A DNA stretch of 64,000 nucleotides from Irineochytrium annulatum. Taxonomy: Eukaryota; Chytridiomycota; Chytridiomycetes; Chytridiales; Chytridiaceae. The DNA is taken from assembly GCA_027600665.1 (NCBI GenBank), contig JADGJL010000002.1, positions 186,001 to 250,000 on the forward strand, in the 5' to 3' direction. How positions within the stretch are numbered: the first letter of the stretch is position 1; every line of letters begins with the position of its first letter. The notes under the pieces were generated by a model that worked only from the letters and a program-made list of their open reading frames with translations, did not search any database and was not told the origin of the DNA. Positions 575 to 49,744 of the stretch are shown piece after piece. The translations under genes and the position numbers were made by a program.

Positions 575-645
575 CGGGAAACGATAGTCCAATAATACGA
601 AGAAGCAGCTGATCAATATGATCTGCTTTTATTCAGCTAACAGAT
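571..645 (+). repeat. Family B repeat, copy 1
   Basis: CTAACGGGAAACGATAG border, about 20 variable bases, a hairpin (AGCAG.TGATC with GATC.GCT and a T run, about 603-630), then a degenerate GCTAACAG border. It acts like a terminator in form and lies directly behind the membrane-protein fragment. Confidence 0.65.
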
Positions 646-677
646 TTTATTAAGGTCAAATGACTAGGAGTGAGGGT

Positions 678-1346
678 ATGAAATTATTACTGACATCTGC
701 AGGTGTTAATAATCAAAGTATACAGAACGCGTTAGTTGGCATGTTGGACAAGCCGATTGCTGACTCCAATGCCCTGTGCATTCCCACGGCGATGTACGGA
801 CATCCCTGGGTTGGCCCTGGCGTCAAAACTTGGGAGTTTATCAGCGGGAAATCCGAGAATCCCATGGTAGACCTCGGCTGGAAGTCTGTAGGCGTGCTGG
901 AGCTCACCGCACTGCCAAGCATCAGTAAAGACCACTGGGAGCCTCTGGTCCGGGAAACAGACGTCTTGCTGGTATCGGGTGGCGACGCTCTCTTCCTATA
1001 CCATTGGATGCGACAATCCGGACTGGCAGAACTCTTGCCTTCACTGAAGGCCGTTTATGTGGGAATGAGCGCCGGCAGTATGGTGATGGCACCTAAGATC
1101 GGGGAATACTTTGTGGGGTGGACTTCACCTACCGGTGGCGATGAAACATTGGGATTGGTTGATTTTTCAATTTTTCCGCATCTTGATCACGTCATGCTGC
1201 CAGATAACACTATGGCTACAGCTGAGAGCTGGGTCGCAGAGATTCAAGGGCCGGCATATGCAATCGATGATCAGACCGCCATTAAGGTGATCGATGGAGC
1301 GGTAGAAGTGGTTTCCGAAGGGAATTGGAGGCATTTTAAGCTCTAA
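678..1346 (+). CDS. Peptidase E-like S51 family protein
   Basis: A 222-residue cytoplasmic protein of the S51 peptidase / class I glutamine-amidotransferase-like fold. The nucleophile elbow GMSAGS places the serine at about residue 131, and a later FPHLDH segment (about 167-171) supplies the likely histidine. Known S51 members cleave N-terminal Asp-Xaa dipeptides or hydrolyse cyanophycin-derived peptides; which applies here is not shown. The ATG at 678 is preferred over an in-frame ATG at 660 because AGGAGTGAGG lies just before it. The length is normal for the family. It appears monocistronic, with a family B terminator-like repeat right after the stop. Confidence 0.85.
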   Translation: MKLLLTSAGVNNQSIQNALVGMLDKPIADSNALCIPTAMYGHPWVGPGVKTWEFISGKSENPMVDLGWKSVGVLELTALPSISKDHWEPLVRETDVLLVSGGDALFLYHWMRQSGLAELLPSLKAVYVGMSAGSMVMAPKIGEYFVGWTSPTGGDETLGLVDFSIFPHLDHVMLPDNTMATAESWVAEIQGPAYAIDDQTAIKVIDGAVEVVSEGNWRHFKL

Positions 1347-1363
1347 GATTCCTCACTGCTGAG

Positions 1364-1446
1364 GTAACGGGATACAATAATTCAATATTACCAAGAAAAG
1401 CAGCCGATCTACGTGATCAGCTGCTTTTGTTCTGCTAACGGGCATT
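1364..1446 (+). repeat. Family B repeat, copy 2
   Basis: TAACGGGATACAATAA border, hairpin AGCAGCCGATC / GATCAGCTGCT (about 1399-1425) with TTTT, then a GCTAACGGGCA border. It stands 17 bases behind the S51 peptidase stop, so it is the likely terminator of that gene. Confidence 0.75.
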
Positions 1447-1690
1447 TGAATTGCTAACGCAGAAAAAGTGGCTGTTCCTATAGAAAAGGCAATTCCTCTT
1501 CCAGAGACTACAAAGCTCTTCGGTGGAAGGGTCTTTTTACTTACTCTGAATTCGTCCATTAGTTATTGTTCAGAAGGAATGCGGACCGTTGGCCGAAGCT
1601 TTTTCAAAGAGTAGCATCTCACCATAAACTTTATGATTTTATAATCAAATGGTTATATAAAGCCTATTTCATATATATTATAATACGGCA
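1447..1690. other. Intergenic, no supported gene
   Basis: A 60-codon plus-strand open stretch ends at about 1611 without a start or ribosome binding site, and the overlapping minus-strand frame has no supporting signal. It may be worn coding DNA, but no family is recognisable. The A/T-rich end (1620-1690) leads into the sugar transporter promoter region. Confidence 0.3.
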
Positions 1691-1705
1691 TGTTAAGCGC
1701 TTACA
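1691..1705. promoter_or_regulatory. LacI/cre-like operator upstream of sugar ABC operon
   Basis: TGTTAAGCGCTTACA is a near-perfect dyad centred on GCGC, the style of a LacI/GalR operator; it has one base more than a standard CcpA cre site. It lies about 160 bp upstream of the sugar-binding protein gene. No LacI regulator is encoded nearby, so the regulator would act from elsewhere. Confidence 0.5.
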
Positions 1706-1788
1706 GTACGGAGTCTAAGAAATTGTTGCGAAGGGGTCTTTTCTTTGAAAGGTTAGAATTATGTTAAGGATGGTGGTGCCAAGATGGA

Positions 1789-1803
1789 TTGTAACCGCTT
1801 AAA
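1789..1803. promoter_or_regulatory. Possible CcpA cre site
   Basis: TTGTAACCGCTTAAA fits the catabolite-repression consensus WTGNAANCGNWNNCW at all but one fixed position. It lies 65 bp before the substrate-binding protein start, a sensible place for carbon catabolite control of a sugar uptake operon. Confidence 0.4.
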
Positions 1804-1867
1804 TCAACAAAACTAACTAGTCAGCCGACTTTTCAAATGCATAACAAAAAGAGAGGATGACGAACAA

Positions 1868-3205
1868 ATGAAAAAACGCAGTGCTTTAATCTCCATCGTT
1901 ACACTCCTTATTATGTCACTTGTTTTTACTGCATGTGGTAATCCTTCTGGTTCAAAAACGGAAACACGTCAATTAGGCGCTAATGCCGGTGAGAATGCAA
2001 CAGAATTATCATTTTGGACATTCGTAGATTTGCACGGCAAGCATTTGGATAAAATGCTGGGGTTATGGAACCAACAGAACCCAGACAAACAGATTAAGTT
2101 AAATGTGACGGTTATGCCTTACGATGATATGCATAACAAGCTTTTACTGGCAGTTACAAGCGGAAAAGGTGCTCCTGATATCGCGGATATTGAGCTAGGT
2201 AAATTCCCGAAATTCTTGGAAGGTGACAACGTTCCCTTGGAATCTTTGAATGATGTATATGCACCATACAAAGACGCTGTTGTTCCTTCACGTGTCGAGA
2301 TTTACTCCAAAGCCGATCAGGTTTATGGCTTTGATTATCACGTAGGGGCTACGCTTGCTTTTTACAACACTGAAATTCTCGAACAAGCAGGTGTTGACTA
2401 CAAGAAAATCATAACGTGGGAAGATTACAAACAAGCAGGTATCCAGGTTTACGAAAAGACTGGCAAGTACTTAGGTACTGCTGATACGTCAGCTTCGTTC
2501 CAAGCATCGCTGCTACTAGCTCAGCAAAATGCTGATTTTACAGATGAAAATGGTAATCCAAAAGTGAATTCGCCTGAAATGATTAAAGCGTTTGAAATGT
2601 TAGTCGATCTGCAGAAGAACAATGTTATTCATACGATCCCTGGCGGACAACCCGACACAGAAGAAGCAAAAGGCGAATATAACAAAGGCAACTACGCAAG
2701 TGCATTAATGCCTGAGTGGTACATGTCCCGCTTTGTAAACGAAATGAAAGACCTTAAAGGGAAGTATGCAATAGCTCCATTGCCTGTATTCGAAGAAGGT
2801 AACCCTCGTTCCGTTGGCTTAGGCGGTACTGGCACAGTTGTTACCAAAAATGGTAAAGACGTTCAGTTGGCAAAAGAATTTGTAGCCTTTGCTAAGCTTT
2901 CGAAAGAAGCTACGACTGAAATTTGGAATACACTTGGATTTGACCCAATCAACATGGAAGTATGGAAAGATGATGCCGTAACGAAAAACCCTGAAAATGA
3001 ATACGTCCAATATTTTAAAACAAATGCATTTGATACTTTGAATGAAATCAAGGACGAAATTCAAGTGATAAAGTCCGTTAAAGCTTCACCAACCATCGGC
3101 AATATATTCAATACGGTTACTTTAAATGCGATCTTTGAAGATGGCCAAGACGTGAAGGAAGCGTTGGATGAAGCACAAGCAGCCATTGAACAAGAATTGA
3201 AATAA
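1868..3205 (+). CDS. Sugar ABC transporter substrate-binding lipoprotein
   Basis: A 445-residue extracellular binding protein of solute-binding family 1 (MalE/UgpB-like). A signal peptide of basic residues and a hydrophobic stretch ends in a lipobox, LVFTACG, with the lipidated cysteine at residue 23. The mature part shows the family's usual start (ELSFWTFVDLHGKHLDKMLGLW), a hinge region, and a C-terminal helix. The start has a good AGAGGATG site. It is followed by a stem-loop and the two permease genes, with no ATPase gene; a shared MsmK-like ATPase encoded elsewhere is usual for this class. The sugar cannot be told from sequence. Confidence 0.9.
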   Translation: MKKRSALISIVTLLIMSLVFTACGNPSGSKTETRQLGANAGENATELSFWTFVDLHGKHLDKMLGLWNQQNPDKQIKLNVTVMPYDDMHNKLLLAVTSGKGAPDIADIELGKFPKFLEGDNVPLESLNDVYAPYKDAVVPSRVEIYSKADQVYGFDYHVGATLAFYNTEILEQAGVDYKKIITWEDYKQAGIQVYEKTGKYLGTADTSASFQASLLLAQQNADFTDENGNPKVNSPEMIKAFEMLVDLQKNNVIHTIPGGQPDTEEAKGEYNKGNYASALMPEWYMSRFVNEMKDLKGKYAIAPLPVFEEGNPRSVGLGGTGTVVTKNGKDVQLAKEFVAFAKLSKEATTEIWNTLGFDPINMEVWKDDAVTKNPENEYVQYFKTNAFDTLNEIKDEIQVIKSVKASPTIGNIFNTVTLNAIFEDGQDVKEALDEAQAAIEQELK

Positions 3206-3227
3206 ATATAATAAGTAAATGATTCGA

Positions 3228-3265
3228 TTAAACCTGTTGGCAGGTATAGTGGTCGGCAGGTTTAA
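3228..3265 (+). promoter_or_regulatory. Stem-loop between binding protein and permease genes
   Basis: TTAAACCTG (3228-3236) pairs perfectly with CAGGTTTAA (3257-3265), and there is no T run after it. Such hairpins commonly stabilise the upstream mRNA segment so that binding protein is made in excess over membrane subunits. That role is inferred. Confidence 0.65.
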
Positions 3266-3289
3266 CCATAGTCAAGGGAGATTGAGAAT

Positions 3290-4186
3290 ATGATAAAGAA
3301 ATTTGTATACTCTCAAAAAGTTGCACCTTATGTTTTTGTATTGCCATTTATACTCATATTTTTGATGTTCTGGTTTTTCCCGCTTGTAAATTCATTCATA
3401 ATGAGTTTTCAAGATCGGATGTTGGGGCAGGATCCTAAATGGATTGGTGAAGCAAATTATTCGAAATTGCTTACAGATAAAGTGTTTTTGATATCGATTA
3501 AAAATAGCGTTGTGTACATGTTAGGAACCTTAGTGCTGTTAATTCCCTTTCCCATGTTATTCGCCGTTATGATCAACAGTAAGTTAATGATGGGAAGAGA
3601 GTTTTTTAAATCTTCGTTCTTTCTCCCTGCATTGACATCTGTCGCAGTTGCGGGTACCATTTTCCGCCTGACATTCGGTGAAATGGAAGGTTCATTAATG
3701 AACAGTTTCCTGGGTCTATTTGGTGTAGAACCTATTAAATTTTTGAAAGACGGAAATTGGAGTATGGCAGCACTGTTAATCCTCGCATGTTGGAGATGGA
3801 CAGGCGTTAATATGCTTTACTATCTATCGGGTTTGAAAAGCATTGACAATGAATATTATGAGGCTGCTTCAATTGACGGTGCATCTGCTTGGCAGAAGTT
3901 TAGAATGATCACAATGCCATTATTGAAGCCGACCACGGTATATGTTACCACAATTAGTGTTTATGCAGGTTTAGCCATGTTTACCGAGAGTCTGATGATG
4001 TTCAACGGTAACAAATCGCCCCAAAATATTGGCTTAACCATTGTTGGATATCTGTATAGACAAGGGATTGAGCAGAATAAGCTGGGTTACGCAGCTGCAG
4101 TTGGTATCATTCTGTTAGTCATTGCGATGGTTATCAATTTAACACAGTTGAAATTTAGTGGAATGTTCAAAAAGGAGGAGGATTAA
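3290..4186 (+). CDS. Sugar ABC transporter permease (MalF/UgpA-like)
   Basis: A 298-residue integral membrane subunit with six hydrophobic segments. The binding-protein-dependent permease signature is present late in the protein (EAASIDGASAWQKFRMITMP), the loop that contacts the ATPase. The start is supported by AAGGGAGATTGAG. The next permease starts one base after its stop, so the two are translationally coupled. Substrate unknown; partner of the lipoprotein encoded just upstream. Confidence 0.92.
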   Translation: MIKKFVYSQKVAPYVFVLPFILIFLMFWFFPLVNSFIMSFQDRMLGQDPKWIGEANYSKLLTDKVFLISIKNSVVYMLGTLVLLIPFPMLFAVMINSKLMMGREFFKSSFFLPALTSVAVAGTIFRLTFGEMEGSLMNSFLGLFGVEPIKFLKDGNWSMAALLILACWRWTGVNMLYYLSGLKSIDNEYYEAASIDGASAWQKFRMITMPLLKPTTVYVTTISVYAGLAMFTESLMMFNGNKSPQNIGLTIVGYLYRQGIEQNKLGYAAAVGIILLVIAMVINLTQLKFSGMFKKEED

Positions 4187-4187
4187 A

Positions 4188-5036
4188 GTGGGCAGAAGTC
4201 AGACGAGGAGTGATTTCATCTCTAGAATAGTAATTATTGGTTTATTCATTATACTATTCGTTATAATTATGATCCCATTCTACGCAGTGGCCCTATCTTC
4301 CTTTAAGCCAGGTGAATCATTAGTTAGATATGGTCTTAACCTAAGTTTGGATTTTGAAATCATGAGTTTTGATAATTTCATCTTTCTGTTTACTGGAGAA
4401 CATGATTATTTTGTGTGGTTTTGGAATAGTTTGATTCTAACAATTGTTCAAGTGGTTTTAACACTTTTTGTAAGCGCATTTGTTGCTTATGGTTTTGCAG
4501 CATATGATTTTAAAGGCAAGAACTTCCTCTTTATATGTGTTTTGCTCATTATGATGGTGCCTTTTGAAATACTGCTGGTTCCTTTGTATAGCCTAATTAA
4601 TGATTTGGGAATGGTGAATAGCTATTCGGCAATCATTTTGCCAGGTATAGCCAATGCCGCGACAATATTTTTCTTCAGGCAATATCTAAGAAGCATACCC
4701 AAAGAGATTATTCAATCTGGGCGAGTTGATGGGGCAAACGAGTATGCAATTTATTTCAGGCTAATTATGCCGATTATGAAGCCATCCTTTGCGGCAATGG
4801 CCATTCTGAATGGGATGAATAGCTGGAATAATCTGTTGTGGCCATTCATGGTGTTAGGAGATCAGAGTAAGTATACACTTCCAATCGGTTTGAAAACGTT
4901 GTTAACTCCTTATGGCAATAACTATGACCTCTTGATCGTGGGCTCCTTCTTCTCCATCGTTCCAATTTTCATACTATTCATTGCTTTCCAGAAATACTTC
5001 ATAGACGGTATGACTGCAGGCGCTGTTAAAGGGTAG
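4188..5036 (+). CDS. Sugar ABC transporter permease (MalG/UgpE-like)
   Basis: A 282-residue second membrane subunit with six hydrophobic segments. The ATPase-contact loop reads IIQSGRVDGANEYAIYFRLIMP: the DGA core is kept but the leading EAA is replaced by QSG, a common variant. The GTG at 4188 is chosen because AAAGGAGGAGG ends 7 bases before it; a start at 4158 would lie inside the upstream gene with no site. The protein ends in the family-typical DGMTAGAVKG. Confidence 0.92.
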   Translation: MGRSQTRSDFISRIVIIGLFIILFVIIMIPFYAVALSSFKPGESLVRYGLNLSLDFEIMSFDNFIFLFTGEHDYFVWFWNSLILTIVQVVLTLFVSAFVAYGFAAYDFKGKNFLFICVLLIMMVPFEILLVPLYSLINDLGMVNSYSAIILPGIANAATIFFFRQYLRSIPKEIIQSGRVDGANEYAIYFRLIMPIMKPSFAAMAILNGMNSWNNLLWPFMVLGDQSKYTLPIGLKTLLTPYGNNYDLLIVGSFFSIVPIFILFIAFQKYFIDGMTAGAVKG

Positions 5037-5064
5037 TATATATTATGATGAAACAGGTGATAAG

Positions 5065-5178
5065 ATGGAAATCCAACAACGAGCGAAAGTGAACGAAGGC
5101 GCGGCATTTCTTCGCAAGGGTAATATATCTATTAGTAAGGATGTAAGCAATCGGATTGAATTTTGCAGATATTTATAG
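5065..5178 (+). pseudogene. Short ORF after the ABC operon, probably a gene stub
   Basis: A 37-codon frame starting at an ATG behind CAGGTGATAAG, 28 bases after the permease stop. Its product (MEIQQRAKVNEGAAFLRKG...) does not resemble a complete small protein. Its position suggests the 5' end of a further operon gene that has since been lost. No family is recognisable. Confidence 0.3.
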
Positions 5179-5200
5179 AAGGAAAGGGATGAAATATTTG

Positions 5201-5257
5201 TTTACTTAGATACGTATTGTGTCTTATAATTCCCATAAAGATACATTTTGTATCTTT
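5201..5257 (+). promoter_or_regulatory. Promoter and palindromic operator of the lasso precursor
   Basis: A sigma-A-like -10 box TATAAT (5225-5230) stands 18 bases from TTTACT (5201-5206). Just downstream is a perfect dyad: AAAGATACA (5237-5245), three Ts, then its exact complement (5249-5257). Its place just after the start of transcription fits a repressor site, or a hairpin in the leader. The promoter would serve the precursor gene 75 bases further on. Confidence 0.5.
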
Positions 5258-5332
5258 GAAAGTTGTATCACGCAAGTAATGTAAGGGTGCTTGCATCTTG
5301 GTTCCAGTTTTGTAGAAAGGAGGAGACGACCG

Positions 5333-5479
5333 CTGGAAACGAAAAAAGCGCCTTGGCAGGCACCGAAATTAGAGGTTCTGGATGTACGACAGCAAACGAT
5401 GGCTGGCCGTGGATACAAGCAAATTGATTGGATCTCCGAACATGATGCAGACCTATATAATCCAGCGTCCTCAAGTTGA
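5333..5479 (+). CDS. Orphan paeninodin-type lasso peptide precursor
   Basis: Forty-eight codons read from a CTG that stands 7 bases behind a strong AAAGGAGGAG. The leader holds the family pattern W..PKLEVLDV and a threonine two residues before the cut (QTM). The predicted core begins Ala-Gly-Arg-Gly-Tyr and has Asp at core position 9, the same ring geometry (residue 1 to Asp9) as paeninodin; it is 25 residues long and ends in serines. In known systems the B1/B2 proteins cut the leader and an asparagine-synthetase-like C protein closes the ring. None of these genes, nor the usual kinase or ABC exporter, is in this window. The CTG may be a mutated ATG. A TTG at 5291 is in frame but lacks a site. 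The call rests on motif recognition, not a search. Confidence 0.75.
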   Translation: METKKAPWQAPKLEVLDVRQQTMAGRGYKQIDWISEHDADLYNPASSS

Positions 5480-5497
5480 AAATCGTATTCTTGCTCA

Positions 5498-5524
5498 AAA
5501 GGTCGCCTGTGGGCGGCTTTTTCG
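5498..5524 (+). terminator. Terminator after the lasso precursor
   Basis: GTCGCC / GGCGGC stem (5502-5518) with one G-U pair, followed by TTTTT. It closes a single-gene transcript, so no downstream biosynthesis genes are expected on the same message. Confidence 0.75.
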
Positions 5525-5800
5525 ATGCTCAGATGAGGTGTATCAGCCTCCTGTTGATGTAACATTAGTTCGAATACATTGCGAAATTCATTACGCCGCT
5601 CGACAAACATTGTCCAATTGAGGCCTTCACGAAAAAATGATTTCTATACATAAGCGATTTCAACAAAATATAGTGATGCATCATCGTAAACGGCTCTTCT
5701 TTTGTCAGCTTCAAATGGACGGGGGAGAAGGAGTCAAAAAAATACGCTTCTCTAAATACGATTGAATTGTGCATGATCAGATTCCCTTCGCTTCGTAAGT
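5525..5800 (-). other. Possible decayed minus-strand coding DNA, unrecognised
   Basis: Two minus-strand frames, 5774-5565 and then 5610 downward, could be pieces of one protein separated by a frameshift: the first starts MHNSIVFREAYFFDSF, the second continues RNEFRNVFELMLHQQ. There is no ribosome binding site before the first. The amino-acid mix looks more protein-like than chance, but I recognise no family and the stretch may be non-coding. Confidence 0.2.
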
Positions 5801-5876
5801 CATTAAATTGGATTCGTTTGTTATGTTAGAACAGGTTTTACACCATTCATAGCGTTGTGAGAGGGGAGTGATGCTT

Positions 5877-6713
5877 TTGAATACTTCTAAACAAATGATG
5901 CCTCATAATTCCAATGATCGTTTTAGTAAACTAGGAATTTATAGCGTCCAAAGTGTCTTTATTATTCTGTTCTTGCTGTTAACCCCTGTCTACTATTTGA
6001 ACAAATGGGACTTTAAACGTCACAAAAAGCGGAAACCTTTCTACACCAGTAAATTGGTTCGATTGCAAGAGCGTTATCCGATTTTCTACGAATTGTCCAT
6101 GTACGTTCAAAATTTCCCTATTCCTCGTAATGTCTATAAAATTTTACCCCCTTTAAAGGGCGATGTTCTTCAGGTGGGCTGTGGTACAGGTTTATTGAAC
6201 AAGTATCTTCGCAAGCAGAAGGATGTTCGTTTTCTCAACATGGATCCGAATTTAAATGCTCTAAAACTTGGAAAGAAGTGGGGAAGGTTTAATTCTTATA
6301 TCCATGCTTTCATTGATAAGCCAACTTCTTTACCTGATCATAGCTGCGATATGATTTTGTTTGCAAGAAGCTTTCATCACATTCGCTATCACAAAAAAGC
6401 CTTCATAGAGAGCTGCAGACTGTTACGTGACGGTGGATCTATCATTATTGCGGACCCGGTTGTTCTCAAGTCTCTTTCAGGTTCTGTAACAGACCGTGGT
6501 TATATGGCGAACTCTTCGATTGATGGTGTAATTTGGAGATTTACCAAAGAAACATTAATTACTCACATAGAGCGCTGTCTTCCTCCTGAATTAAAGATAG
6601 AATCCGTAACCGAAACGAGACAAGTGCATGTAACGAATTATAATTTATTTGTACCTCAGACAGATATCGTAGTGGTACTGCGAAAAAGGGAGGCTGTATA
6701 CAATGACAACTAA
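5877..6713 (+). CDS. Membrane-anchored class I SAM methyltransferase
   Basis: About 278 residues. One N-terminal hydrophobic segment (about residues 20-40, SVFIILFLLLTPVYYL) is followed by a basic stretch and a Rossmann-type methyltransferase domain with motif I VLQVGCGTG (about 96-104), an acidic post-motif (NMDPN) and LLRDGGSIIIADP. GGGGAG at 5863-5868 gives ideal spacing to the TTG at 5877; the ATG at 5871 is too close but possible. Substrate unknown. Such enzymes modify lipids, quinones or small peptides. Its nearness to the lasso gene is suggestive only, since a terminator separates them. Its 3' end overlaps a truncated next gene. Confidence 0.75.
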   Translation: MNTSKQMMPHNSNDRFSKLGIYSVQSVFIILFLLLTPVYYLNKWDFKRHKKRKPFYTSKLVRLQERYPIFYELSMYVQNFPIPRNVYKILPPLKGDVLQVGCGTGLLNKYLRKQKDVRFLNMDPNLNALKLGKKWGRFNSYIHAFIDKPTSLPDHSCDMILFARSFHHIRYHKKAFIESCRLLRDGGSIIIADPVVLKSLSGSVTDRGYMANSSIDGVIWRFTKETLITHIERCLPPELKIESVTETRQVHVTNYNLFVPQTDIVVVLRKREAVYNDN

Positions 6714-6732
6714 ATTTATTTATGGTGTTTGA
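6703..6732 (+). pseudogene. Nine-codon stub of a lost downstream gene
   Basis: An ATG overlapping the methyltransferase stop has a strong AGGGAGG site 8 bases before it, the classic layout of a coupled operon gene. The frame stops after MTTKFIYGV. The terminator at 6767 follows at once. The simplest reading is that a partner gene of the methyltransferase was deleted. Confidence 0.5.
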
Positions 6733-6766
6733 AATCTGCAGCATGATTTAATGCTTATCCGTTGCT

Positions 6767-6798
6767 AAAGGTACCTCTCCACAGAGGTACCTTTTTTT
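6767..6798 (+). terminator. Rho-independent terminator
   Basis: AAAGGTACCTCT / AGAGGTACCTTT perfect stem with a 4-base loop and a seven-T tail. It ends the methyltransferase transcript. Confidence 0.9.
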
Positions 6799-6898
6799 GT
6801 ATATGATAACGTTCAGCCACTAAATAATGATTCTGAAATATAACGGGGGTATACCTGTATTTATCGCAGAGTTTTCTTATCCTTCAGGTGAAGTGCAG

Positions 6899-7014
6899 GG
6901 CAGACTCCAAAAGTGATCCTATTGAATTCGCTATATTAGCGGCTATTTTTGTTTTATCGGTACAAGTTCTTGTCTCGAGCCAAGGACAAGAACTTGTACC
7001 GATTGCCGATTAGG
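6899..7014 (+). repeat. Family A repeat, copy 2
   Basis: The first box is worn, and the terminator-like hairpin reads TTCGCTATATTAGCGGCTA. The long second hairpin (6956-7003) is nearly perfect, with 18 paired bases around CGAGCCAA, and is followed by GATTGCCGATTAGG. It lies between the methyltransferase and VanZ genes. Confidence 0.8.
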
Positions 7015-8155: not shown

Positions 8156-8274
8156 GTCGGGGGACAAGAACATATGCCCATTGAAAGTCGCTATTTTAGC
8201 GGCTTTTTTAATTTATCGGTACAAGATCTTGTCTCGAGCCAAGGAGAAGATCTTGTACCTGCCAACAGATTAGA
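8156..8274 (+). repeat. Family A repeat, copy 3
   Basis: GGGGACAAGAACAT box at 8160, terminator-like hairpin AGTCGCTATTTTAGCGGCTTTTTT (8186-8209), long hairpin 8217-8259. In this copy both arms of the long hairpin read AAGATCTT where other copies have AAGTTCTT and AAGAACTT, a matched change that keeps the pair. It sits 7 bases behind the VanZ stop and may be its terminator. Confidence 0.85.
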
Positions 8275-14863: not shown

Positions 14864-15250
14864 CATGATATATGCTGGGTTTGATCATTTTTTAACGGGA
14901 AATTTGTCAATCAGGTTCCAAAACTTCAAGATGTGGAAAGGTCTCGTTAGATTGTTGCGTTAACGCATATAATAATTTCACCCCATCGCGGGCTTGGGAG
15001 TTGTTCACTAAGCACGGTTGGTTGCAAGAATTCAGTCATGTGTAATACTATAATGCTTGTTAAGCAACTGCAAATGACACACCCGACCAAGCTGAAGTTG
15101 GGGAAAAGGAACACGGGTCCGGCCGCCTTTTACTATAAAGGGATTTGGATAAACGTGAACTGTAACATGATTAATATTCTTATTGTGAAGATGAGAAGAA
15201 CATATCCGAGCTGATCAAAATCAATTGGGATAGTTATATTAGACATATTT
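14864..15250. other. Intergenic, no clear gene
   Basis: No frame here has a start with a ribosome binding site. A plus-strand stretch near 15075-15170 could be worn coding DNA, but nothing is recognisable. Confidence 0.3.
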
Positions 15251-15395
15251 CGAGGGACAAGAACATTGTTCCATTCAAAGTCGCTATTTTAGCGGCTTTT
15301 TTGATTTAAGGAACCAAGTTAATGTCCCAAGCGGAGGACAAGAACTTGGTTCCTTTGCCGAAAAGGACAAGAACATGTTCCCATTTCCGATTAGA
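15251..15395 (+). repeat. Family A repeat, copy 4, extended
   Basis: GAGGGACAAGAACATTG box, terminator-like hairpin AGTCGCTATTTTAGCGGCT with a long T run (15279-15303), long hairpin 15308-15355, then a second GGACAAGAACATGTTCCC unit ending in GATTAG. The outer arms read AAGGAACC and GGTTCCTT instead of ATCGGTAC and GTACCGAT, again a change on both sides that preserves pairing. Confidence 0.85.
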
Positions 15396-48656: not shown

Positions 48657-49744
48657 TTTCTCTCCTCATAATAGTCCTTCCATATTCCCTCTTCCCTGGA
48701 ACGTTCTTTAACAACCTTGGAGAAGTAGGTTTTGAGAATGGACAGATCCTTGTCGTTTTCCTTCGCAATGGTCCCTAGCATGTTCTGCACTAATCGATCC
48801 AGCGCAATAGCCTTATCTTCGTAGTAATAGGAAGTCATCGCACTCTGAACATAGACTGACACCGCTTCTGCTGTACTCATAGAGGCTTGAGGTGTATCAA
48901 GCTTGTAGCCCTCCCGTGTCATGCCTGTGCGCAGTTCCATAAAGGTTGTAGCCAGCAATTCAACCACATCCGGGTTAATTTCGATATCAATTCCACTATG
49001 TAATAACAGGCTTCTTGCCTGGGATTCAATAATTTTGGCTTCCATCTTCACGTTATGAATGGGCTTGATCGTTTCAAAATTGAACCGCCGTTTCAAGGCA
49101 CCGCTCATTTCGTTAACACCTTTATCCCGAATATTGGCTGTAGCAATAACGTTAAATCCCGGCTGGGCAAACAGTACACCGCCATCCAGTTCGGGAATGC
49201 TCATAACCTTGTCACTGAGAATACTGATCAGACTATCCTGCGCTTCAGCGGGACAACGTGTAATCTCTTCAAATCGGGTAAGAATGCCTTTCTTCATTCC
49301 GTTATATAACGGCGATGGTACAAGCGCCGCTTCCGAAGGGCCTTTATCCAGCAACATGGCGTAATTCCATGAATACTTGATCATGTCTTCCGTCGTACCT
49401 GCTGTACCTTGAATCGTGTTCAGGCTGGTGCCGGAGATCGCTGCGGTTAATAGTTCGCTAAGCATGGTCTTGGCTGTTCCGGGTTCTCCCACAAGCATTA
49501 ATCCCCGATTGCCTGCCAGAGTGACTACTGCACGTTCGATCAACACGTCATTGCCATAAAATTTGCGGGTAATCGGGATTTCTTCTCCATTCCATAGCGC
49601 TGGCTTATCCCTGCCAATAATAAAATCACGCACATAGGCGGGAGATAACAGCCAGTTCGGGGGACGTTTTCCCTGATCCTCTTCTCGCAGTGCACGTAAT
49701 TCAACCTCGTATAATGTCTCGGCGGGTGGTTTAAGCATCTCCAT
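48644..49744 (-). CDS. MoxR-type AAA ATPase (YehL-like)
   Basis: A 366-residue AAA+ ATPase. Walker A is GEPGTAKT; the Walker B position reads ILTRFEEI, with Glu where MoxR proteins usually have Asp. Sensor 1 (VIATANIRDKG), the arginine finger area (ALKRRFNFE) and a C-terminal lid follow. It heads an operon of six coupled genes. AGAGGAGACACC is followed by both a TTG (49750) and the ATG (49744); either could be used. Confidence 0.88.
   Translation of the reverse strand: MEMLKPPAETLYEVELRALREEDQGKRPPNWLLSPAYVRDFIIGRDKPALWNGEEIPITRKFYGNDVLIERAVVTLAGNRGLMLVGEPGTAKTMLSELLTAAISGTSLNTIQGTAGTTEDMIKYSWNYAMLLDKGPSEAALVPSPLYNGMKKGILTRFEEITRCPAEAQDSLISILSDKVMSIPELDGGVLFAQPGFNVIATANIRDKGVNEMSGALKRRFNFETIKPIHNVKMEAKIIESQARSLLLHSGIDIEINPDVVELLATTFMELRTGMTREGYKLDTPQASMSTAEAVSVYVQSAMTSYYYEDKAIALDRLVQNMLGTIAKENDKDLSILKTYFSKVVKERSREEGIWKDYYEERKWIG

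Follow-up and report, generated by a model that had tools for sequence, protein, structure and literature searches.

A stand-alone paeninodin-family lasso peptide precursor with a putative CTG start and an operator pair shared with a distant lasso operon

The 64-kb stretch of DNA analyzed here, referred to as the window, contains a compact cassette for a lasso peptide precursor of the paeninodin family with no lasso enzyme gene beside it. Judging from its sequence and that of its relatives, it is reasonably probable that this is a second, stand-alone precursor that is co-regulated with the lasso operon located elsewhere in the same assembly, started at a CTG codon, and matured in trans to a second lasso peptide. 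A single set of enzymes may well yield two products.

Anatomy of the stand-alone cassette

The cassette occupies positions 5182 to 5538 of the window on the plus strand, as delimited by the extent of contiguous similarity to ten copies at other places, and consists of a promoter, two operator-like dyads, the precursor gene, and a terminator. An earlier note, made from the sequence alone, had placed here a 48-codon frame with its own promoter, a 9+9 dyad, a ribosome binding site, and a terminator, and all of these were confirmed. The -35 element TTTACT (5201 to 5206), which lies in a conserved region of the copies' alignment, and the -10 element TATAAT (5225 to 5230) have a spacer of 18 nt and match 10 of 12 consensus bases. 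A promoter scan alone found 5 promoter-like sites compared with 2.8 ± 1.7 in shuffled sequences, which is not clearly above chance. The dyad of the earlier note (dyad 2; 5237 to 5257) is a perfect 9+9 repeat, AAAGATACA-TTT-TGTATCTTT (z = -5.6), with the core GATACATTTTGTATC at 5240 to 5254. Another operator-like dyad, GATACGTATTGTGTC (dyad 1; 5209 to 5223), had been overlooked; it lies within the -35/-10 spacer, 31 nt upstream of dyad 2.

The Shine-Dalgarno sequence AAAGGAGG (5316 to 5323) is followed after a gap of 9 nt by the putative start codon CTG (5333 to 5335), and the region from -17 to +2 is invariant across the three genomes with this CTG. The frame runs for 48 codons to a TGA (5477 to 5479; frame 5333 to 5479). 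It encodes a leader of 23 codons (5333 to 5401) with a WxxPxL motif and Thr at -2, and a core of 25 codons (5402 to 5476) with Ala1, Asp9, and a C-terminal Ser, the cleavage site being predicted by homology. A terminator hairpin with a T run follows at 5495 to 5525 (-15.4 kcal/mol, z = -3.2, with none of 200 shuffles as good); it was absent from the output of a simple terminator scan. A hairpin around the Shine-Dalgarno sequence and the CTG was considered and rejected, being no stronger than in shuffles (z = -0.29), and no Rfam element was found in the window at gathering scores.

The precursor belongs to the paeninodin family

The predicted precursor reads (M)ETKKAPWQAPKLEVLDVRQQTM / AGRGYKQIDWISEHDADLYNPASSS (leader / core). 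It matched the NCBIfam model NF033524 (paeninodin family lasso peptide) with 53.5 bits against a cut-off of 27. The name proposed in the earlier note, that of a paeninodin-type lasso precursor that is read from a CTG and has no enzymes nearby, holds, and the comparison with a family leader model did not refute it. A search of 5.8 billion proteins returned six relatives, each aligned along leader and core, and the source name "paeninodin family lasso peptide" was visible on three of the six. The best of them, P0001, comes from Paenibacillus sp. RRE4 and shares 96% identity with the window precursor. This strain appears to have two stand-alone-type precursors (P0001, P0020, and P0049); P0049, a remnant of 28 residues, lacks most of the leader. 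Membership in the paeninodin family is in itself ordinary and already present in public annotation.

The residues on which the earlier note relied are all present: W8, P11, L13, and Thr22 (the Thr at -2) in the leader, and Ala1 and Asp9 in the core. Ala1 and Asp9, a first residue and an acidic one of the kind that could form a macrolactam, occur likewise in the precursor of the operon described below, and a ring is predicted. The two precursors are 67% identical and have in common the WxxPxLEVL leader, Thr at -2, the Ala1/Asp9 core, the C-terminal Ser, and an operator pair. The window copy differs in being unlinked, in having its own promoter and terminator, in its CTG start, in one extra leader residue before the cleavage site, which places WxxP of its lineage at -16 rather than -15, and in Arg instead of Thr at core position 3; the tails also differ. 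Since the first motif place of the window leader is Trp, it lacks the YxxP of the precursors of linear polyphosphorylated peptides (LPP), a difference in leader motif described in PMC13381572.

The displaced motif is a caution for maturation in trans. The frame might be translated and yet give no lasso peptide, acting as a decoy or regulatory peptide that binds B1, or as a precursor poorly handled on account of its one-residue-longer leader. The position of WxxP speaks for this, as PbaA has its Trp at -15 (PMC13381572). However, the window core keeps Ala1, Gly2, Gly4, and Asp9, as well as the stretches QIDW and HDADLY, none of which would be required of a decoy, and we regard this explanation as improbable.

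A complete lasso operon lies elsewhere in the same assembly

The assembly containing the window comprises 26.9 Mb in 1082 contigs. Asparagine synthase in exon-like pieces together with a single DnaA match suggests that it probably holds a eukaryote and one Paenibacillus. As the earlier note had stated, no B1, B2, C, kinase, or exporter gene was found in the 64 kb: the only PF13471 (B2-type) match of the assembly is on contig C1, none of its five PF00733 matches is on the window's contig C214, and the seven operon proteins gave no match above 60 bits in the window. B1, B2, and C beside the precursor, the usual operon trait, lie outside the family model.

A search of the whole assembly for lasso B and C proteins, proposed in the earlier note, revealed a complete paeninodin-type operon on contig C1. 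It lies on the minus strand and contains a sulfotransferase-like gene, C, a paeninodin-family precursor (NF033524; C1 of G000, 48711 to 48848), a kinase-like gene, B1, B2, a nucleotidyltransferase-like gene, and an ABC exporter. B1 matched NF033536 (123.5 bits; cut-off, 80) and B2 matched NF033537 (97.1 bits; cut-off, 33). The cyclase remained below the cut-off of NF033535 (367.8 versus 525), the sulfotransferase-like and exporter proteins matched NCBIfam families below cut-off only, and the nucleotidyltransferase-like protein matched no NCBIfam family; the kinase and nucleotidyltransferase are named from their position and from the operon described in PMC13381572. In the closest relative found (G068), the window is 98.8% identical over 5.2 kb and the operon proteins are 99 to 100% identical. 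Both loci are on one chromosome there, 1.7 Mb apart by coordinates.

Unlinked copies recur across the genus, apparently as a compact cassette

A family precursor was found in 70 of 75 genomes of the genus at E <= 1e-15, in 89 places. At 15 of these places, in 14 of the 75 genomes, the precursor is unlinked (L015 to L023 and L088 to L093), with none of C, K, B1, and B2 in the flanking DNA, which covered about 10 kb in each direction except for L022, where one flank is about 0.5 kb. All 14 genomes with an unlinked copy also have the operon (L030, L035, L038 to L042, and L094 to L100), each matching the seven proteins. Short best stretches of C (380/654) and ABC (505/606) in L039, and of K (247/314) in L098, indicate that these genes may be interrupted.

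An alignment-based search of genome contigs yielded 43 loci. The window is contiguously similar to ten copies located elsewhere (L015 to L022, L091, and L093) from about -150 to between +193 and +312 of the start codon; with L090 the similarity extends to +138, and with L023 and L089 it is confined to the gene. Sugar-ABC genes lie upstream of the cassette in the window, L088, and L092, and downstream in L015 to L019 and L093. Because similarity ends near the cassette and the gene order around it differs, the unit gives the impression of a compact cassette, one that was copied or moved. Two of the 16 unlinked copies, L022 and L093, are broken.

At the corresponding alignment position, none of the 15 other unlinked copies sits inside a larger, unrelated gene; had one done so, the earlier note would have counted it as a refutation. 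A chance frame or a part of a longer gene was ruled out by the family-model match and the alignment of unlinked copies. An artifact of chance or assembly could be suspected from the mixed 26.9-Mb assembly and the nonstandard start, but it is hardly credible given that 14 genomes have homologues, that two other genomes have this very CTG, that the family model matches, and that the promoter pair is conserved.

A methyltransferase gene (5868 to 6713) was considered as a tailoring gene and set aside: although 10 of the 16 unlinked copies have it nearby, the DNA around L020, L022 (about 0.5 kb on one side), L023, L089, L090, and L091 gave no match to it, and a terminator lies between it and the cassette. 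The gene order of window positions 643 to 6844 is permuted relative to sisters. It reads S51 peptidase-like gene, sugar-ABC genes, cassette, and methyltransferase in the window, compared with cassette and methyltransferase followed by sugar-ABC genes in L015 to L019 and L093. The altered order and the CTG start occur together (window, L088, and L092). Intergenic repeats of about 100 nt with hairpin arms of the GGACAAGAACTTG type occur in the window at 43 to 141, 6898 to 6996, 8157 to 8255, and 15250 to 15348, and similar repeats lie close to cassette copies in L017 (9612 to 9729), L019 (9617 to 9728), L022 (9624 to 9737), and L020 (10191 to 10338); they might have helped the cassette move. Separately, the lasso operons of four genomes (G004, G005, G036, and G077) contain two tandem precursor genes less than 200 nt apart.

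The putative CTG start is old and the frame behind it has changed little

A CTG at 5333 in place of ATG, behind the ribosome binding site, was seen as reported earlier. Comparison with sisters, which the earlier note had proposed, gave the following start codons for the 16 unlinked copies including the window: ATG in 10, CTG in 3 (the window, L088, and L092), ATA in 1 (L019), ATT in 1 (L090), and none in 1 (L022). L022 has its start deleted and a stop at codon 8, and L093 has an ATG start with an in-frame stop at codon 9. Being common to three genomes, the CTG change is real and old. From the upstream TAA to the CTG, the frame of L088 and L092 contains no ATG, GTG, or TTG. In the window, a TTG at 5291 is in frame and had been overlooked in the earlier note; it was rejected as a general start, as both near sisters lack it. 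A deposited protein, P0015, is identical to the translated L090 frame when ATT is read as Met, and therefore an annotator has called an ATT start. For the operon copy, 67 loci were scanned, some genomes entering twice and four operons with tandem precursors being read at one copy each; 63 readings had ATG, 3 had no motif match (L049 to L051), and 1 was a stand-alone copy (L083).

These counts bear on whether the cassette is a silenced relic, that is, a duplicated precursor that lost its start, is perhaps still transcribed, gives little or no peptide, and is decaying like L022 and L093. ATG in 10 of 16 unlinked copies and in all 63 operon-copy readings, three separate non-ATG starts, and two broken copies all fit such a history, and the proposal of the earlier note that the start codon mutated agrees with them. 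However, CTG, ATA, and ATT are reduced but real starts in E. coli, as cited in PMC13068326. The same source gives a measured order of initiation of ATG > ATA > ATT in Listeria.

The window, L088, and L092 form the CTG clade, and differences among them presumably postdate the CTG. Codons 2 to 48 vary at 4 of 141 sites compared with 40 of 458 noncoding sites (-150 to -18 and +206 to +534; Fisher p = 0.016), a test on regions picked by the analyst from which the stretch with the stop and terminator (1/61 variable) was omitted. The neighboring methyltransferase gene varies at 27 of 845 sites. Three of the four frame changes are silent; with 77% nonsilent sites, the chance of at most one nonsilent change is 0.04, calculated on these four changes. 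As the frame changed less than nearby noncoding DNA and mostly silently, the comparison, small as its numbers are, favors a CTG that is used over a dead relic. General purifying selection on the unlinked copies was not seen: pooled pN/pS was 0.93 over 13 copies (all except L022, L023, and L089), and the seven ATG copies that are intact gave 1.05. A ratio near 1 over diverged copies fits decay, and it may reflect core diversification, relaxed constraint, or both. On balance, a silenced relic seems unlikely, although it carries more weight than the other alternatives discussed so far. For the CTG clade, where the frame appears constrained after the change (four changes only), the silenced remnant of the earlier note is not favored; its mutated start codon stands.

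The cassette and the operon have the same operator pair

In the window promoter, dyad 1 and the core of dyad 2 are at 5209 and 5240, 31 nt apart, and a pair with identical 31-nt spacing is found in the promoter of the C1 operon. With one mismatch allowed, the pair was found at 70 places in 58 of the 75 genomes (17 genomes had none at this stringency), and a reversed control pattern was found at 0 places in the 75. Fifty-six of the 70 places lie 3.0 to 4.2 kb from an operon precursor, which is how far away the operon promoter stands in the loci read. Another 12 have an unlinked precursor no more than 400 nt away, and the remaining 2 are elsewhere (G046 and G050). In the 15 other unlinked copies, the spacing is 31 nt in 12 and 30 or 32 nt in L019, L023, and L089. 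Because 68 of the 70 places are at promoters of lasso operons or stand-alone precursors and the reversed control gave none, the pattern reads as co-regulation of the two with maturation in trans. Of the two options in the earlier note, maturation in trans is favored over the silenced remnant, because the full operon is in the same assembly and this rare promoter architecture is found at both loci.

Single sites, in four genomes, also precede genes for a PAS histidine kinase, an HpaB-like hydroxylase, and a sugar-nucleotide epimerase; hence a single site is not confined to lasso genes, though the 31-nt pair nearly is. Such GATACAWNNTGTATC-type sites (L178 to L185, L187 to L193, and L195) also precede a gene for a carboxypeptidase-regulatory-like domain protein, among others; several of them recur at matching positions in at least two genomes, and a wider regulon is possible.

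L186 and L194 each have a single site, flanked on one side by an XRE-type repressor gene (HTH_3) and on the other by genes that carry CpsB/CapC or Wzz domains. The site was beside the XRE gene in all nine loci read. The site itself had led to these two loci; seven more genomes were reached via the XRE gene, and in 7 of 7 the site was upstream of it. The XRE protein is thus a likely candidate regulator of both promoters. Upstream of this gene, beside capsule/exopolysaccharide genes (among L186, L194, and L196 to L202), dyads GATACATTTTGTAAC and GATACAA...GTATC were observed 33 nt apart, a spacing seen in L186, L196 to L200, and L202. The XRE gene or region was not found in the window's assembly with the protein or with 3.3 kb of a sister's DNA, an empty answer that is uninformative.

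Proposed maturation in trans

On the favored reading, derepression would switch on both promoters together, the likely regulator being the XRE repressor encoded beside capsule/exopolysaccharide genes, and the stand-alone precursor would be transcribed as a one-gene unit. Ribosomes would start at the CTG at 5333 behind the strong Shine-Dalgarno sequence, probably at a reduced rate, giving fewer precursors than with ATG. B1 of the operon, which is an RRE protein, would bind the WxxP leader, B2 would cleave after Thr(-2)-Met(-1) and before core Ala1, and C would close the Ala1-Asp9 ring. In paeninodin, Ser is phosphorylated at the C-terminal position. The kinase and exporter would handle the window peptide as the operon's own peptide. 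The expected product is a second lasso peptide with Arg instead of Thr as ring residue 3 and another tail. Its calculated lasso mass is 2761.27 Da, with 79.97 Da more for each phosphate, compared with 2577.14 Da for the operon core. Binding of WxxP by B1 and phosphorylation of Ser by the HprK-like kinases of such operons are described in PMC13381572.

Comparison with known systems

Unlinked precursors are known from other RiPP pathways, an example being the prochlorosin precursors that ProcM serves. That system likewise combines one enzyme set with precursors elsewhere in the genome, but it belongs to another RiPP class, and the private operator pair common to precursor and enzyme operon was seen here. 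The LPP of Bacilli also have an RRE-bound leader with a related motif and often occur in genomes with paeninodin operons; in contrast to the Trp and lasso core features of the window precursor, they have a Tyr motif and a signal-peptidase-type leader protease (PMC13381572). The clade-specific non-ATG starts of Listeria (PMC13068326) resemble the present case in that the start of a conserved gene shifted along lineages to weaker near-cognates; those starts were measured by reporter, whereas the window case is one of sequence evidence and the codon is CTG. In the literature searched, mostly at the title and abstract level, we found no unlinked lasso precursor that is conserved across species and shares an operator pair with the operon, or that is read from a CTG.

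More speculatively, Paenibacillus may have a lasso system of one factory and several templates. A 0.36-kb cassette would be copied to new sites, with the core diversifying, above all at ring position 3, and would stay tied to one enzyme operon via a private operator pair inside an exopolysaccharide regulon. The changes from ATG to CTG, ATA, or ATT would then be a repeated setting of the dose of a second peptide and not decay. We offer this wider scheme tentatively, as one that is more doubtful than not.

Implications

Genome mining usually seeks lasso precursors beside their enzymes, and remote co-regulated copies would therefore be missed or dismissed as orphans. If the stand-alone precursors are matured in trans, one enzyme set would yield a small family of lasso peptides, and the operator pair would be a way to find others. 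The copies form a natural start-codon series (ATG, CTG, ATA, and ATT) within a single conserved gene, and with it one can test directly whether near-cognate starts tune or kill a gene. In addition, an operator beside exopolysaccharide genes provides a lead on the role of paeninodins, a role described as unknown in PMC13381572.
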